Below are positions 3,239 through 9,175 of a DNA stretch of 64,000 nt, piece by piece. Each line of letters opens with the position of its first letter. The stretch's first letter is position 1. The notes beneath the pieces were generated by a model. It was not told the origin of the DNA and searched no databases. It saw nothing but the letters and a program-made list of their open reading frames with translations. The translations under genes and the position numbers were made by a program. The DNA lies in the NCBI RefSeq assembly GCF_037914945.1, contig NZ_CP149787.1:1054001-1118000 (forward strand), written 5' to 3'. Source of the DNA: Haloterrigena sp. KLK7. GTDB lineage: Archaea; Halobacteriota; Halobacteria; Halobacteriales; Natrialbaceae.

Positions 3239-3440
3239 CTTCTCACGAACTCACACTCATAGCGTCAGTGCTACGTACTGAATACACGAGTCCACCCCGA
3301 GAGGGGCGCGACCGTCGGGACGTCGGTTCCGCATTCGGCCCTGGTAGCAGTGGCGGGGCGGGGATTCAACCGTGGCGAGAGTGTACGACGGCCCGTACGG
3401 ACCGAACGGCCAGTGCGGACGACTCTCAGCACGATTCATC

Positions 3441-4268
3441 ATGTCCTCTCACAGCACCGACACGGCCGACCTCGAGGCGACGTACGGAACCGACGAAACC
3501 GACACGCAGTCCGAGGGGAGCGGAATCCCGTCGACCATCGGCTCCCGAGTACGGGACGGCACGCTCCCGATCCTGTCCGGCGCCGCCCTGCTCGTCGATG
3601 CGATCCGGACGGCGGGACGGAGCCGACGCCGCGCCGGCCTCCGTGCGTTCGCCGGGGGCGCCCTCCTCGGGGCCGGGCTCCGGCAGCGGCGCTCGAGCGA
3701 CGACACGGCCGAAACGGCGGGCGACGAGTCGGGCGAGTACGCCGAAACCGAATCGATCGGGATCGGTGACGACGCGGGTGAGCTCTCGGACGACGCTCGA
3801 GCCCACCGCGAGCGGTCCGACGTGCGCCACGAGTCCGAGACGAACCCCCGCGGCGTCTCGGGGGAGCCCGACGTCGAGACCGAAACCGATCCCGACGAGG
3901 GCGAGGTCCGGTTCGCGACCGCGCGGAACGAGAACGCGTCGCCGAAGCCGCGCCTCGAGGACGCGGACGAGGAGGACCCGCGGCGGCCGGACACCGAGGA
4001 TCCGTCGACGCCCGACGACCACGTCGAAGTCGACCTCTCGACGGCCGCGATGGCCGACGAAGCCAGCGAGGCGACGGGTCCCGATCCCGAGCAGGCCTAC
4101 CCCTCGCTCGAGGGGACCGATCCCGAACCGATGTCGGAAGAGGCCCCGCCGCGAGGCGGTCTCGCCGGTTCGAACGCCGATTCGGGCGATACTGAAGGCG
4201 AGCTGAGCGACGATCGCTCGCCGACAACGGACGGCGAAACGGACCGCGAGGACGAGAACGATTTCTGA
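3441..4268 (+). CDS. Acidic protein with a hydrophobic N-terminal region, unknown
   Basis: 275-aa protein I do not recognise. Residues about 25-75 contain GTLPILSGAALLVDAIRTAG and RAFAGGALLGAGL, two short hydrophobic stretches that could be membrane-associated. The rest (about residue 80 to the end) is low-complexity Asp/Glu/Ser/Pro-rich sequence, likely disordered and cytoplasmic. Start at 3441 (MSSHSTDT) is preferred over upstream codons that overlap the region after tRNA-Thr. Confident as a coding region because of the strong acidic bias and length, not as to function. Confidence 0.6.
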   Translation: MSSHSTDTADLEATYGTDETDTQSEGSGIPSTIGSRVRDGTLPILSGAALLVDAIRTAGRSRRRAGLRAFAGGALLGAGLRQRRSSDDTAETAGDESGEYAETESIGIGDDAGELSDDARAHRERSDVRHESETNPRGVSGEPDVETETDPDEGEVRFATARNENASPKPRLEDADEEDPRRPDTEDPSTPDDHVEVDLSTAAMADEASEATGPDPEQAYPSLEGTDPEPMSEEAPPRGGLAGSNADSGDTEGELSDDRSPTTDGETDREDENDF

Positions 4269-4722
4269 CGCCGACGGAAACCGTTCGCTCGTCGCTCACG
4301 GCGACGCGAGCCCCGATTCGGAGGCGATCTCTCGATCGGTGACCGGACCGCTACGCGCTCGAACGTCGAACCAGAACGGCGCCGAATAAGACGTCTTCAG
4401 CGTTTCTATCGTCGATTCTCATCTACTGGCGAGACGGTAAGCGGATAATATGTGACGGTACTCGGACGTTCGTATATCGTATATATACATAGATTGAAAT
4501 GATCGCTTCACATCGAAATCCCGGTAAGAATCTCGCCGTCAACCATACCCGGTAGTTCTAGCTGGAAACTAACGCGTTCTAGAAGATGTCTCCGGAGAAT
4601 ACGTACGGAGAATAACTATTTCTGTCACTATTATAGCTCTGTTCTGGGTGCCAGATGACACAGCGATACCAATCGAGAACGGGAGGGAACAGGTGGGGCC
4701 GTCACTCACGGTGGGGGTCCAA
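4269..4722. other. 454-bp intergenic region, AT-rich
   Basis: No gene seen. The DNA turns AT-rich from about 4385 to 4640, in contrast to the flanks. A run of alternating A/T at 4471-4490 (cgtatatcgtatatatacat) is the best TATA-box candidate for the following HTH/peptidase genes, which would leave a leader of over 200 bases if the ATG at 4723 is used, or less if the GTG at 4648 is the true start. Confidence 0.5.
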
Positions 4723-5304
4723 ATGAGCGTCGAATCGGTGGGACAGACGTCCCTCGAGGAGTCCGACGACGCGACCGACGGGCTGACGCAGGAGGTAGCG
4801 TTTACCATGTTGAGCTGTCGGCGGCGACGATACATTCTCCACTATCTCAGACAGGAAGGCCGAGCGGTGACGCTCCACGAGCTGTCGAAGCAGCTCGCTG
4901 CCTGGGAGAACGACGTCGATCCAGACGCCGTCACGCACAAGCAACGAATGCGGGTCTATACGGCCCTTCGGCAGTCTCATCTGCCGAAGTTAGACGAGAA
5001 CGGCGTCGTCGAATTCGACGCGTCGGCCGGCACGATCGCGTTGACAGACGACGCGTCGGAACTCGAGGTGTATCTGGAGGTCGTCCCGCACGACGAGATT
5101 CCGTGGAGCACGTACTACCTCGGGCTCGGAGGAATCTGTGCCAGCGTGGTAGGGCTTTTCGGGATCGGCATCTTCCCGTTCTCGGCGCTCTCCGGGATCG
5201 GTATCGCCGCGCTCGTGACGCTCCTGTTTACGGTCTCAGCGGTCGCGCATCGATATCACGAACGACGGAACCGCCTCGGTTCGGACGGGGAGCCGCCAGC
5301 GTGA
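4723..5304 (+). CDS. Membrane-anchored HTH protein, DUF7344-type
   Basis: 193-aa protein with a winged-helix-like N-terminal domain (residues about 25-120: MLSCRRRRYILHYL, then LHELSKQLAAWEND, then RVYTALRQSHLPKLDENGVV). This is the DUF7344 pattern common in haloarchaea and also seen at 33158 in this window. Two hydrophobic segments follow at about 130-175 (TYYLGLGGICASVVGLFGIG and GIGIAALVTLLFTVSAVA), which would tether the regulator to the membrane. It ends 10 bp before the signal peptidase, so they are probably one transcript. A GTG at 4648 is an alternative start adding 25 residues. Likely the regulator of the secreted-fibre module (inference from position). Confidence 0.75.
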   Translation: MSVESVGQTSLEESDDATDGLTQEVAFTMLSCRRRRYILHYLRQEGRAVTLHELSKQLAAWENDVDPDAVTHKQRMRVYTALRQSHLPKLDENGVVEFDASAGTIALTDDASELEVYLEVVPHDEIPWSTYYLGLGGICASVVGLFGIGIFPFSALSGIGIAALVTLLFTVSAVAHRYHERRNRLGSDGEPPA

Positions 5305-5314
5305 GGTGACCGAT

Positions 5315-5944
5315 ATGGGAACGGACGAATCCACACGAGAGAGCCGTTGGAATCGGAGAACGCTCGGTAACATCATCGGCGTTTGTCTACTAATCGGGAT
5401 CGTCACGCCGTTTCTCATCGTAGGCGTCCCGCAACTCGCGGGCGCGAGCGAGAGCCACGTCGTGCTGTCCGACAGCATGAGCCCGACGTTCGAATCGGGC
5501 GACGTAATCCTCGTCGAGGACGTCGGTCCCGAGAACATCGAGGAAGGCGATGTGATCACCTATGCGGACGGCAGTGGGGAACGGACGACCCACCGCGTGG
5601 TCGACGTCGTCGAACGGGACGGCGAGCGCCAGTTCCGGACGAAAGGCGACGCGAACGAAGAACCCGATAGCGACCTCGTGTCAGCCAGCGCTGTTGAGGG
5701 CCGACACGCACATACACTGCCGTATATCGGGCACGTCGTCCTGTTTGCCGGCTCGAGGCTCGGGATCGCCCTGCTGCTGATCGTCCCGGGAACGCTGCTG
5801 GCCGTTTCCGAGGTATGGGAGCTGTATCGTGCGTGGAAGACTACCAACGACGACAGTCCGACCGATTCCGGAAAAACCGATGACGATGAGGTCAGTGAAC
5901 GGGCGACGAAGCACAGTAGACCGGAACCGACGGAAGACGATTGA
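5315..5944 (+). CDS. Signal peptidase I, SipW/Sec11 type
   Basis: 209-aa membrane protease that removes signal peptides outside the membrane. An N-terminal TM (about residues 18-45) is followed by the nucleophile box LSDSMSPTFESGDVI, then TTHRVVDV and KGDAN. Ser-Met, a His in place of the bacterial Lys, and the downstream Asp give the Ser-His-Asp arrangement of archaeal/ER and SipW enzymes. A second TM pair (HVVLFAGSRLGIALLLIVPG) and a hydrophilic acidic tail follow. The neighbours downstream all carry SipW-type or related signals, so it is likely the dedicated processing enzyme for them. ATG at 5315 preferred; a GTG at 5306 would overlap less naturally. Confidence 0.88.
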   Translation: MGTDESTRESRWNRRTLGNIIGVCLLIGIVTPFLIVGVPQLAGASESHVVLSDSMSPTFESGDVILVEDVGPENIEEGDVITYADGSGERTTHRVVDVVERDGERQFRTKGDANEEPDSDLVSASAVEGRHAHTLPYIGHVVLFAGSRLGIALLLIVPGTLLAVSEVWELYRAWKTTNDDSPTDSGKTDDDEVSERATKHSRPEPTEDD

Positions 5945-5957
5945 GCGAAAGCCACGA

Positions 5958-6239
5958 ATGAAATTGAACCATCAAACACGATTCGCGATCCTAATAGTGA
6001 CGATCACGCTCGCTCTGACGAGTGCGACAGTATCAACGACAACGGGAACTTTTCTCGATGAAGAAAGGGTGAACAACAATGAAATCGAATCCGAAATCTA
6101 TGGAAGTGAGTCGGCGAACAGTAGTAACGGAACACAGACAGTTGAGATTGATCAAAAGGGATCTGAAAACCAAACTGTCCTCAATGGAATGAATAATGGC
6201 GGCCACGATCAAAGCAGCGACAATGAATCGAATGGATAA
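5958..6239 (+). CDS. Small secreted Asn/Ser-rich protein, probable peptidase substrate
   Basis: 93-aa protein starting 13 bp after the signal peptidase. Residues 8-28 form a hydrophobic helix (FAILIVTITLALTSATVS), followed by TTTGTFLDEERVNNNEIESE, which has the layout of SipW/TasA signals (hydrophobic helix, Thr/Ser, then xFxDEE and an Asn-rich start of the mature chain). The mature part is Asn/Ser/Gly/Glu-rich and only about 60 residues. Codons are AT-rich, unlike the rest of the window. Likely a minor fibre subunit, anchor or accessory to the TasA-like proteins (inference); it has no recognised domain. Confidence 0.65.
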   Translation: MKLNHQTRFAILIVTITLALTSATVSTTTGTFLDEERVNNNEIESEIYGSESANSSNGTQTVEIDQKGSENQTVLNGMNNGGHDQSSDNESNG

Positions 6240-6455
6240 AATAATCTGAGGAAGACACGAAGTAGATCCAATGGGATAATCATTACAGGATCTGTTCTAG
6301 TACCAAAGATACAGTTGGTTAATAGATATAGAATAAGTTATTGTAATCGTCTTCTCTGATCCTCTCCTTTGAGGTATTACTATGGGAAGAATTGCTAGCT
6401 ATATTCAGTATCCACTCTAGTAGTGTTCAAGAGAAGCAGGGTGACTGCCAGTGAG

Positions 6456-7193
6456 TTAACTGGAACCCTGACGTAGAGAGAACGTCACGTTCGTCTTAAC
6501 TACGTCTCCCTGATAGTCATTCGGTATTTCCGCTGCGAGTGCGACCTCGATCGTCACGGTCGTTTGAGTGTCCTTATCATCGGCGGATCCGCCTTTCGGA
6601 GGGACTGGTGTGAGGTCATCTAGCGCGTCTTCGTTTTCTGCTGCAGCCAAGTCATCGAGATCGATGTAGCCGTTACCGTTCGTGTCTCGAATATCGGGAT
6701 GATCGCTATTACTCACTGATTCACCGTCGTTGACTAGTGTCAAGACAGTATTGCCGTCCGTGTCATCGTATCCCAACTTTTCTACCTTCACGTACTCAGT
6801 CATACCGTCGGCTCCATCAGTCGGATCACTTTCTGGACCGGATGAGGTTCCATCATCGCGATCACCGTTATCGTCCTCATATGTGTTATTCTCGAAGTCC
6901 AGTTTAACGTGAGAGCCATCAACCGTGCCACTGTTGAACAGCTGAACGTCTTGATCGTCCCACGCGTTCGAACCACCTGGCGCGCCACCCTGTATGAGCC
7001 ACTCTATCGATCCACCGTTCGTAATACCGAGGTCAAGAGTGCCTGCAGTTACTTCGTTTCTAGCACTTGTCTCTGAGTCACTGAAGTATGCCCATGTTCC
7101 AGCGCCTACACCGCCAGCAGCGAGACCTACAGCTGAGAGACCCTCGAAGAAACGTCGGCGAGTTAATTCGAGTTGCGATTCGCTGTCGTCCAT
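6456..7193 (-). CDS. TasA/camelysin-like secreted protein with Ca-binding-like loop
   Basis: 245-aa secreted protein. The N-terminus has TRRRFFEGLSAVGLAAGG (a twin-arginine-like motif and hydrophobic helix), then GTWAYFSDSETSARNEVTAG, the hallmark of SipW-dependent signals. The mature chain starts LDLGITNGG and contains FNSGTVDGSHVKLDF, typical of the TasA/CalY beta-sandwich. Around residues 165-180 the stretch DTNGNGYIDLDDLAAAE looks like a dockerin or EF-hand-type calcium loop. It starts 6 bp after the stop of the next gene upstream (7200-7823), so both are one operon. It converges on the small secreted gene at 5958. Probably a structural fibre subunit or surface protein. Confidence 0.8.
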   Translation of the reverse strand: MDDSESQLELTRRRFFEGLSAVGLAAGGVGAGTWAYFSDSETSARNEVTAGTLDLGITNGGSIEWLIQGGAPGGSNAWDDQDVQLFNSGTVDGSHVKLDFENNTYEDDNGDRDDGTSSGPESDPTDGADGMTEYVKVEKLGYDDTDGNTVLTLVNDGESVSNSDHPDIRDTNGNGYIDLDDLAAAENEDALDDLTPVPPKGGSADDKDTQTTVTIEVALAAEIPNDYQGDVVKTNVTFSLRQGSS

Positions 7194-7199
7194 GACGTG

Positions 7200-7823
7200 T
7201 CAGTTCTGTTTTAGCGCGACTTCGACGTCAAAGGTGACTTGGTCACCCTGTGCGTCGTTCTGGTTCCCATTGTTCGGGAACTCCCACTTGACATAGAGGT
7301 ACTTAGTCTCTGACGTCGAGAGGCCTTCTTCGGCGCTTTGTGGTCCGTTGCTGGCCACCGTATGGATATTGGCCTTGCTCAGGACATCGTTTTCGTCGCC
7401 ATCACCGAGATCCGTATCATTAGCGTAGTCGGGATCGATACCGACCTCAACCTTGAGGTAGTCGTCAAGTTCACCGTCACCGTCATCATCCACGGGTTCC
7501 GGGTCCTCATACCCGTTTTCAAGGCTCACAACATTGATGACATCAAGTTCAATGTCGCCCCCATCGATGGATCCTGCGTTGTTGAGCTGCCAGACAGCGT
7601 TTCCGGTGTCTCCTGGTTTTGCGTCGGGAACCGAAATGGGAGCATTCGCCTGCGTGGACAGCTCGAGATCGAGCGTCCCCGCGGACACAGTGTTCCCCGT
7701 ACTCTCTTCGGTGTCGCTGAAGTACGCCATCGTCCCCGCACCGGCAGCTGCGCTGCCAGCGCCGATGAGACCGATACTTCCGAGCACTTTGCGCCGCGAA
7801 ATGTCGAACGTGTTGTCGGACAT
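7200..7823 (-). CDS. TasA-like secreted protein with Tat and SipW-type signal
   Basis: 207-aa secreted protein and first gene of a two-gene operon. It begins with ISRRKVLGSIGLIGAG (a good twin-arginine motif), followed by GTMAYFSDTEESTGNTVSAG and then LDLELS, the SipW-type junction found in TasA and camelysin. The mature part has the TasA-type segments WQLNNAGSIDGGDIELDV and KYLYVKWEF, and Asp-rich loops. It shares layout with the downstream paralog but differs in sequence. Family knowledge: TasA proteins form extracellular fibres in bacteria and TasA-like subunits form bundling pili in archaea. A role in surface fibres is inferred. Confidence 0.82.
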   Translation of the reverse strand: MSDNTFDISRRKVLGSIGLIGAGSAAAGAGTMAYFSDTEESTGNTVSAGTLDLELSTQANAPISVPDAKPGDTGNAVWQLNNAGSIDGGDIELDVINVVSLENGYEDPEPVDDDGDGELDDYLKVEVGIDPDYANDTDLGDGDENDVLSKANIHTVASNGPQSAEEGLSTSETKYLYVKWEFPNNGNQNDAQGDQVTFDVEVALKQN

Positions 7824-8245
7824 AGTTGGTATTCTCCGTCGTCACCCCGTCGCGCTCGAGAGGTCGACCCCACCGGCCGACCCCCGAACGCCCGGGGCGA
7901 CTGCAAAAATGGCTACGGCACAGTCCACACTATATATACACAGGGTGACAAGAACATAGAAACACCCTCACATCGTCGGAGAGGTCGTATAAGCTCGATA
8001 AAGCGATGGTTGTGAACTGGAACCGAGGAATATACGCCGTCTATTTTCGCTGAGAGACCGTCTATTTCCGGGTATGTGGCGTCTACCGATTCGGGTGCCA
8101 TACGGACGAGGCCGATCAGGCAATCACTCCGTCCATTTTGCTCGAGCCGCGTAGCTGCTCTTCGGTCAGGAACTCGAGTCGCCGCTGCCCTTCTCGAGGT
8201 GCAGTTCGGAACCACGGTTTAGTGGGTGACCGTTGGACGACCGGT
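7824..8245. other. 422-bp divergent intergenic region
   Basis: No gene seen. It separates the leftward TasA-like operon from the rightward epimerase. A TATA-like run tatatata at 7931-7938 lies about 110 bp before the 7823 start and is the best promoter candidate for the operon. Nothing comparable is clear for the epimerase, whose start is at 8246. Confidence 0.5.
7929..7940 (-). promoter_or_regulatory. TATA-box candidate for TasA-like operon
   Basis: An alternating A/T run of eight (7931-7938) in otherwise GC-rich DNA, about 107 bp upstream of the ATG at 7823. If used, the leader would be about 80 bases, longer than usual for haloarchaea, so a nearer promoter is possible. Confidence 0.4.
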
Positions 8246-9175
8246 ATGGCCGAAACCGAACTATCGACGGCGGAGTTCGAGTACGATGTCGAGACCGCGA
8301 TCGTCACGGGGGCGACCGGGGACGTCGGGTCGTGGGTCGTCGACCGACTGGCGGACCGAGGCGTCGACGTCGTCGGGATCGATCTCGAGCGGCCCGACGG
8401 CGTGCGCGCGAACGTCGACTTCCGCGCCGTTGACCTGACCGAGGGCGTCGACACGTGGGAGACGATTCACGAGGTCGACCCCGACGCCGTCGTCCACCTG
8501 GCGGCCCTCTCGGATCCGCTCGAGAACCCGTCGACGCGGCTCTTCGAGAACAACGTCACGAGCGCGTACAACGTCCTGCAGGCGACCGGACGCGAGGGGA
8601 TCGACGTCGTCTGGTCGTCGTCGCAGGCGACCTACGGCGCGCTGTTCGCGGAGTCGACGTGGACGCCGGACTACCTGCCGATCGACGAGGCCCACGACCG
8701 CCGACCCGAGGACGCCTACGGCCTCTCGAAGGTCTGCGGCGAGGAGATCGCGAAATCGATCGCCCGTCGGTACGACATCTCGGTGACGACGATCCGGCCG
8801 GCGACGATCTTTTCGCCGACGAAGGAGCGAGCGCGCCCGCCCGAGGACGGCTCGGACCTCTCGAGCGAGGAACCGACCGGGAACTTCGCGTCCTACGTCG
8901 ACGTACGCGACGTCGCCCGGATGGTCGAAGCGGCGCTGGCGGCCGACCTCGAGGGTCACGAGGAGTTCCTCTGTGTCGCCGACGAGAACTACCTCGGGCG
9001 GCCGACCGCGGAACTCGTCGAGACGGTCTGCGGATCGATTCCCGGCGAGGTCGACCTCGAGGGCAAGGAGTCGGCGCTGTCGAACGCGAAGGCCGCCGAG
9101 GTGCTCGGCTGGACGCCAGCCCACACGTGGCACGAGGGGTCCGACGAGGACGTCTCGGGACCGACGTGGCTCTGA
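8246..9175 (+). CDS. NAD-dependent epimerase/dehydratase (extended SDR)
   Basis: 309-aa Rossmann-fold enzyme. The dinucleotide-binding motif TGATGDVGSWVVDRL is near residue 17, the acidic residue after beta-2 (GIDLE) predicts NAD rather than NADP, and the YGLSKVCGEE catalytic Tyr-Lys pair is near residue 160. These are nucleotide-sugar epimerase features. The start at 8246 (MAETELST) was chosen because upstream residues lack any fold. No sugar genes are adjacent, so the substrate is open. Confidence 0.85.
   Translation: MAETELSTAEFEYDVETAIVTGATGDVGSWVVDRLADRGVDVVGIDLERPDGVRANVDFRAVDLTEGVDTWETIHEVDPDAVVHLAALSDPLENPSTRLFENNVTSAYNVLQATGREGIDVVWSSSQATYGALFAESTWTPDYLPIDEAHDRRPEDAYGLSKVCGEEIAKSIARRYDISVTTIRPATIFSPTKERARPPEDGSDLSSEEPTGNFASYVDVRDVARMVEAALAADLEGHEEFLCVADENYLGRPTAELVETVCGSIPGEVDLEGKESALSNAKAAEVLGWTPAHTWHEGSDEDVSGPTWL

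Follow-up and report, generated by a model that had tools for sequence, protein, structure and literature searches.

A 64,000-nucleotide stretch of the genome of Haloterrigena sp. KLK7 (Natrialbaceae), referred to here as the window, carries five clustered genes that are best explained, with a probability of about 0.7, as a horizontally acquired TasA-type surface-fibre module, mechanism and regulation included. The sequence-only reading of this DNA as a TasA/SipW-type fibre module is supported, and the biofilm or matrix role which that reading put forward may apply.

Gene content of the module

The module is listed in Table 1 and comprises a DUF7344 protein, a SipW/Sec11-type peptidase, a 93-aa protein and two TasA/camelysin homologues. 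All five genes were found where the sequence-only reading had placed them, and their coordinates bear out the order that it described, the two structural genes being convergent to the peptidase unit. Once promoters are counted the module is wider than the span first given and extends approximately to the island borders of the table. No TapA or SinR homologue was identified for it. A chance grouping is unlikely, the same gene set having been found again in 18 loci from at least nine genera.

Table 1. Features of the module, in window coordinates; a slash in a junction marks the predicted cut
Feature	Position	Strand	Basis or remark
Five-gene module, Haloterrigena sp. KLK7	4723-7823		span as first given
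Genomic island, approximate borders, five genes inside	4214..8187	.	GC drop; flanks adjacent in G001, G002, G003 and G005
Near-match to the element (ATGTATATATAC), one mismatch, intergenic before the regulator gene	4479..4490	-	other loci: none seen at this place
DUF7344 winged-helix protein, C-terminal membrane segment(s), candidate regulator	4723..5304	+	PF24035, hydropathy
SipW/Sec11-type signal peptidase, two membrane segments	5315..5944	+	TIGR02228, NF046067 and SEC11 profile matches, motifs
93-aa small protein	5958..6239	+	ORF after sipW in type-A loci; profile match
TasA/camelysin-like subunit 1 (TasA1), Tat signal LTRRRFF, predicted junction GTWA/YFSD	6456..7193	-	PF12389, TIGR04088, fold, profile
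TasA/camelysin-like subunit 2 (TasA2), Tat signal ISRRKVL, predicted junction GTMA/YFSD, KPGD "proline box"	7200..7823	-	PF12389, TIGR04088, fold, profile
Promoter element GTGTATATATA, 118 bp upstream of the tasA2 start	7931..7941	-	sole copy in genome; kept in type-A loci
Weaker conserved block (GAGGG-TCTA), about 16-29 bp upstream of the element	7956..7970	-	column conservation over 16 promoters

The TasA-like subunits

The two proteins taken from the outset as TasA/camelysin-like scored above the cut-offs of both relevant models: PF12389 (41.6 bits for TasA1 and 61.8 for TasA2; cut-off 22.5) and the SipW-type signal model TIGR04088 (42.7 and 35.9 bits; cut-off 19). They are the only PF12389 genes of the whole genome. 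Against NF046066, the B. subtilis TasA equivalog, TasA1 reached 20.3 bits, far below the cut-off of 450, and TasA2 gave no match. Searches of the PDB with each single sequence returned nothing convincing and only profiles reached TasA, those of the haloarchaeal families matching the B. subtilis TasA chains 5OF1/8AUR with E values of 8.4e-14 (TasA2) and 4.3e-14 (TasA1).

Structure prediction against TasA, which had been suggested as a check, gave the B. subtilis TasA fibre (8AUR) as the top PDB match for the AlphaFold2 models of both subunits (mean pLDDT 77.9 and 78.6). The Foldseek E value was 4.9e-6 for TasA2, which also matched 5OF1 and 5OF2, and 3.8e-4 for TasA1. TM-scores of 0.52/0.47 for TasA2 and 0.39/0.41 for TasA1 are only moderate, and model confidence is low in both proteins over the first 40-45 N-terminal residues, the presumed donor strand. 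The predicted structures support a TasA jellyroll fold for both subunits. A division of TasA1 and TasA2 into two fixed subfamilies was dropped, tree support being weak.

The Tat motif [STN]RRxx[hydrophobic] was identified in the n-region of 130 of the 130 genuine haloarchaeal TasA-like matches, a count that leaves out three further regex matches located outside the signal. TasA1 and TasA2 are predicted Tat substrates by their signals. Since TasA of Bacillus is exported through Sec, a different route seems to be used here. The junction pattern of both subunits is GT-x-A/YF-x-D, with an aromatic P2', and parallels the GTWA/AFND junction of B. subtilis TasA. Taken with the predicted export signals and the dedicated peptidase, this SipW-type junction fits a surface localisation. 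The KPGD box of TasA2 resembles the proline box discussed in PMC10151520; TasA1 lacks it and has APGG there. A hairpin sequence resembling a tRNA T-arm (GGCGGTTCGACTCCGCC) lies in the TasA leader, ahead of the gene, in loci L059 and L062.

Signal peptidase and small protein

The peptidase scored 110.1 bits against TIGR02228, archaeal signal peptidase I (cut-off 51.85), and 125.7 bits against NF046067, the Bacillus SipW equivalog, which is below the cut-off of 190 although the E value is 1.6e-36. Profile matches were also obtained to human SEC11C (E 2e-17) and SEC11A (E 2e-15), and the Ser-His-Asp motifs are conserved (SDSM, THRV and GDAN). The original SipW/Sec11 label therefore holds as family resemblance, the protein not being a Bacillus SipW equivalog. 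No paper on SipW together with Haloferax was found among the open-licence papers checked. A second signal-peptidase cluster occurs in the same genome (L067, G000:C1:1795000-1805000, approximately 4062-7163) and consists of a peptidase of 391 aa, a short Tat-like protein and two ORFs, about 390-400 aa long, that look like membrane proteins; a cluster resembling it adjoins DUF7344 genes in Natrinema, Natrialba and Natronococcus (L083-L096).

The small protein consists of a non-Tat signal that ends in a TasA-like start (TTGTFLDEERVNNNEIES), followed by a short acidic tail rich in N, S and T. In the type-A loci described below, sipW is followed by an ORF that has a signal of this kind, with profile matches in 14 of the 18, some of them being training sequences. 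These proteins have no Tat motif, apart from a basic start (RRRRR) in L065. This protein, described as substrate-like, has a conserved signal-like start and a conserved place after sipW; the signal junction is a degenerate SipW-type one, and the family-model searches gave neither a family match nor a TIGR04088 match. It is a candidate initiator or assembly factor comparable to TapA or CapP, a parallel by analogy rather than by homology. In Bacillus, TapA and CapP have starter, anchor or chaperone-type roles, and TasA and CalY form mixed filaments (PMC10151520, PMC13082335).

Candidate regulator and promoter element

The first gene had been called a membrane-tethered HTH regulator. A winged-helix DUF7344 protein is confirmed (102.9 bits against PF24035, curated cut-off 27.8, E 1.2e-29), as is one strong hydrophobic segment at residues 156-174; as a regulator it is a candidate. 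The gene start is backed by the orthologue in L133 and identity across type-A loci is 46-60%. DUF7344 is a large paralogous family in haloarchaea, for which no publication was found among open-licence papers.

The element GTGTATATATA occurs once in the 4.64-Mb genome. With the consensus GTGTATATATA(C) it lies about 65-135 bp upstream of the TasA genes in type-A loci, and with at most one mismatch it precedes a TasA gene in 16 of the 18, being missing from the other 2. Whole-genome counts of GTGTATATATAC gave exactly one copy in each of six other type-A genomes, zero in the five congeners without the module and zero in three genomes with other TasA loci. The only genome with two copies of the element is G023, where the second lies 77 bp upstream of a TasA-like Tat gene convergent with a DUF7344 gene; the search for the element thereby exposed one further TasA-DUF7344 locus. 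No SipW was found in the 17 kb read there, which indicates that the element tracks DUF7344 rather than SipW. This locus (L172:7849-10566, G023:C6), with a 582-aa TasA-like Tat protein, a DUF7344 gene and GTGTATATATAC, represents an orphan variant. DUF7344 may bind the GTGTATATATA element, a pairing suggested by their co-occurrence.

Two other sequences were noted. ACGGAGAATA, considered as a motif shared by the regions ahead of both transcripts, was rejected, its frequency being about that of shuffled sequence and the motif not being conserved before DUF7344 in L133. A YATAACTA-type motif at 4611-4620 of the window, 5' of the DUF7344 gene, is kept in several type-A loci and is distinct from the TasA element.

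Genomic context and recurrence

The island is about 3.9 kb in size and its GC content is 0.55, against approximately 0.69 around it. The flanking genes (3372-4268 and an epimerase at 8246-9175) lie adjacent, within about 150 bp, in four of the five congeners: G001, G002, G003 and G005. In the fifth the epimerase is retained, but no close copy of the gene on the other side was found. The module is present in one of six genomes of the genus. No convincing direct repeats, target duplication or integrase were identified at the borders.

The type-A set, DUF7344-SipW-small protein adjoining TasA-like genes, was identified in 18 loci (14 convergent and 4 divergent), obtained by a scan anchored solely on the DUF7344 protein plus loci from other searches. 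The genera are at least nine and include Natronorubrum, Natrinema, Natribaculum, Halomicrococcus, Haladaptatus, Haloferax, Halolamina and Halorarius. G226 (L133), from another genus of the same family, shares all five genes and their arrangement, but its flanking genes are different. Of the 391 genomes of the class, 45 carry PF12389 genes at a strict threshold.

Proposed mechanism and alternative explanations

In the mechanism proposed here, TasA1 and TasA2 would be exported folded via the Tat pathway, and the dedicated SipW/Sec11-type peptidase would cut them just before the aromatic-rich N-terminal strand (YFSD...). The freed strand would insert into a neighbouring subunit by donor-strand exchange, producing fibres possibly of both subunits mixed. 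The small protein, leaving by the Sec route and with a junction of the same type, would start, anchor or control assembly, possibly as a chaperone, and the membrane-linked DUF7344 winged-helix protein would switch the TasA operon via GTGTATATATA and the block just upstream. Cleavage of the subunits by this peptidase and heteropolymers are what such a scheme would predict, and the fibres may function in matrix, adhesion or aggregation. Tat export of a donor-strand subunit is a proposal derived from the signal motifs. A combined form, in which Tat-folded subunits polymerise only after a private SipW frees the strand, the fibre is initiated or capped by a "donor strand plus tail" protein, membrane-tethered DUF7344 acts on one site per genome and the cassette moves between genera, is put forward tentatively, at appreciably less than even odds.

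It is improbable that the TasA-like proteins are instead secreted or cell-bound proteins of the camelysin type, protease-like or monomeric adhesins, exported by SipW and forming no fibres. PF12389 does carry the Pfam name camelysin metallo-endopeptidase, and many of the haloarchaeal relatives, at 400-700 aa, are far longer and could be surface proteins that act as monomers; however, the closest fold match is TasA in its fibre form, for which PMC9674648 notes no more than a possible ancestral cation site, and the distance between signal junction and first strand is conserved, which donor-strand assembly would require. Loss of an ancestral locus from the congeners, in place of acquisition, also appears unlikely: the GC gap here (0.55 versus 0.66) exceeds that of the other measured type-A loci, unrelated genes surround the G226 module and the flanking genes are adjacent in four congeners, although presence in one of six genomes is compatible with loss and other type-A modules are also somewhat lower in GC than their surroundings. 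Acquisition of the module would be the simplest reading.

More weight, though short of an even chance, is given to GTGTATATATA as a basal promoter box for a general factor, with DUF7344 controlling the peptidase unit alone or otherwise employed. The core of the element resembles an AT-rich TATA box at a plausible distance upstream, and the size and paralogy of the DUF7344 family also suit this explanation. Nevertheless, the tested genomes contain hardly any other copy of the 12-mer, which argues that it is not a common TATA box, and it accompanies DUF7344 and TasA even where SipW is missing (L172). Control of the TasA operon by DUF7344 through the element is the preferred reading.

Comparison with known systems

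Fibres built by donor-strand exchange are published for TasA, ABP and ABPx (PMC9674648, PMC11952670), the donor residues of TasA being F29, I32 and F39 (PMC9674648), and in B. cereus SipW occurs together with TasA, CalY and the chaperone-like CapP (PMC13082335). With the tapA-sipW-tasA operon of B. subtilis the module shares a dedicated SipW-type peptidase beside a TasA subunit, the TasA fold (predicted here), the aromatic P2' at the junction (GTWA/AF there, GTxA/YF here), the KPGD box in TasA2 and a small partner with a putative SipW-type signal. It differs in the Tat signals of its TasA subunits, in having two TasA paralogues and no detected TapA homologue, in a DUF7344 membrane protein replacing SinR/SlrR, in the convergent order and in the module-specific promoter element. 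The sipW-tasA/capP/calY set of B. cereus (PMC13082335) likewise has two TasA-family subunits, one SipW peptidase and one extra protein, putatively processed by SipW in the present case, with a variable low-complexity tail; here, by contrast, the small protein has no detected CapP (DUF4047) homology, the signals are of the Tat type and the candidate regulator is archaeal.

The archaeal bundling pili AbpA of Pyrobaculum calidifontis and ABPx of Pyrodictium are reported to be donor-strand fibres related to TasA (PMC9674648, PMC11952670), and the haloarchaeal subunits differ from them in carrying Tat signals. Profile matches of the subunits to AbpX were not significant (E 0.04-0.33), and AbpA was not among the sequence or fold matches listed for them.

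The kind of system is already known, since archaeal TasA-type fibres (ABP, ABPx) and SipW-TasA operons are published. Within the open-licence literature checked, what appears to be new is the pairing of DUF7344 with a DNA element specific to the module, together with the Tat signals and the occurrence as a transferable island. TasA-type fibres were previously known from Bacillus and hyperthermophilic archaea, and a haloarchaeal module is now predicted. With some haloarchaea being genetically tractable, a module of this kind, regulated and transferable, would make the export route, the triggering by the peptidase and the regulation accessible in an archaeon, and DUF7344 gains a concrete hypothesis with a target site and target genes.

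The type B loci, an architecture common elsewhere in haloarchaea, resemble the module in their TasA-like Tat proteins, SipW family and nearby DUF7344 gene. They differ in having several large subunits in tandem (250-700 aa), a longer SipW (about 350 aa) and another gene order, and the GTGTATATATAC element is absent from the two tested (G037 and G059). Arrays of 2-6 TasA-like Tat proteins of 250-700 aa each were observed in L041-L071 (for example L041:3946-17818), frequently accompanied by a DUF7344 gene in divergent orientation, a longer peptidase of the SipW type and a neighbour, conserved and about 280 aa long, with the motif PxYTGxNRCxPCT.
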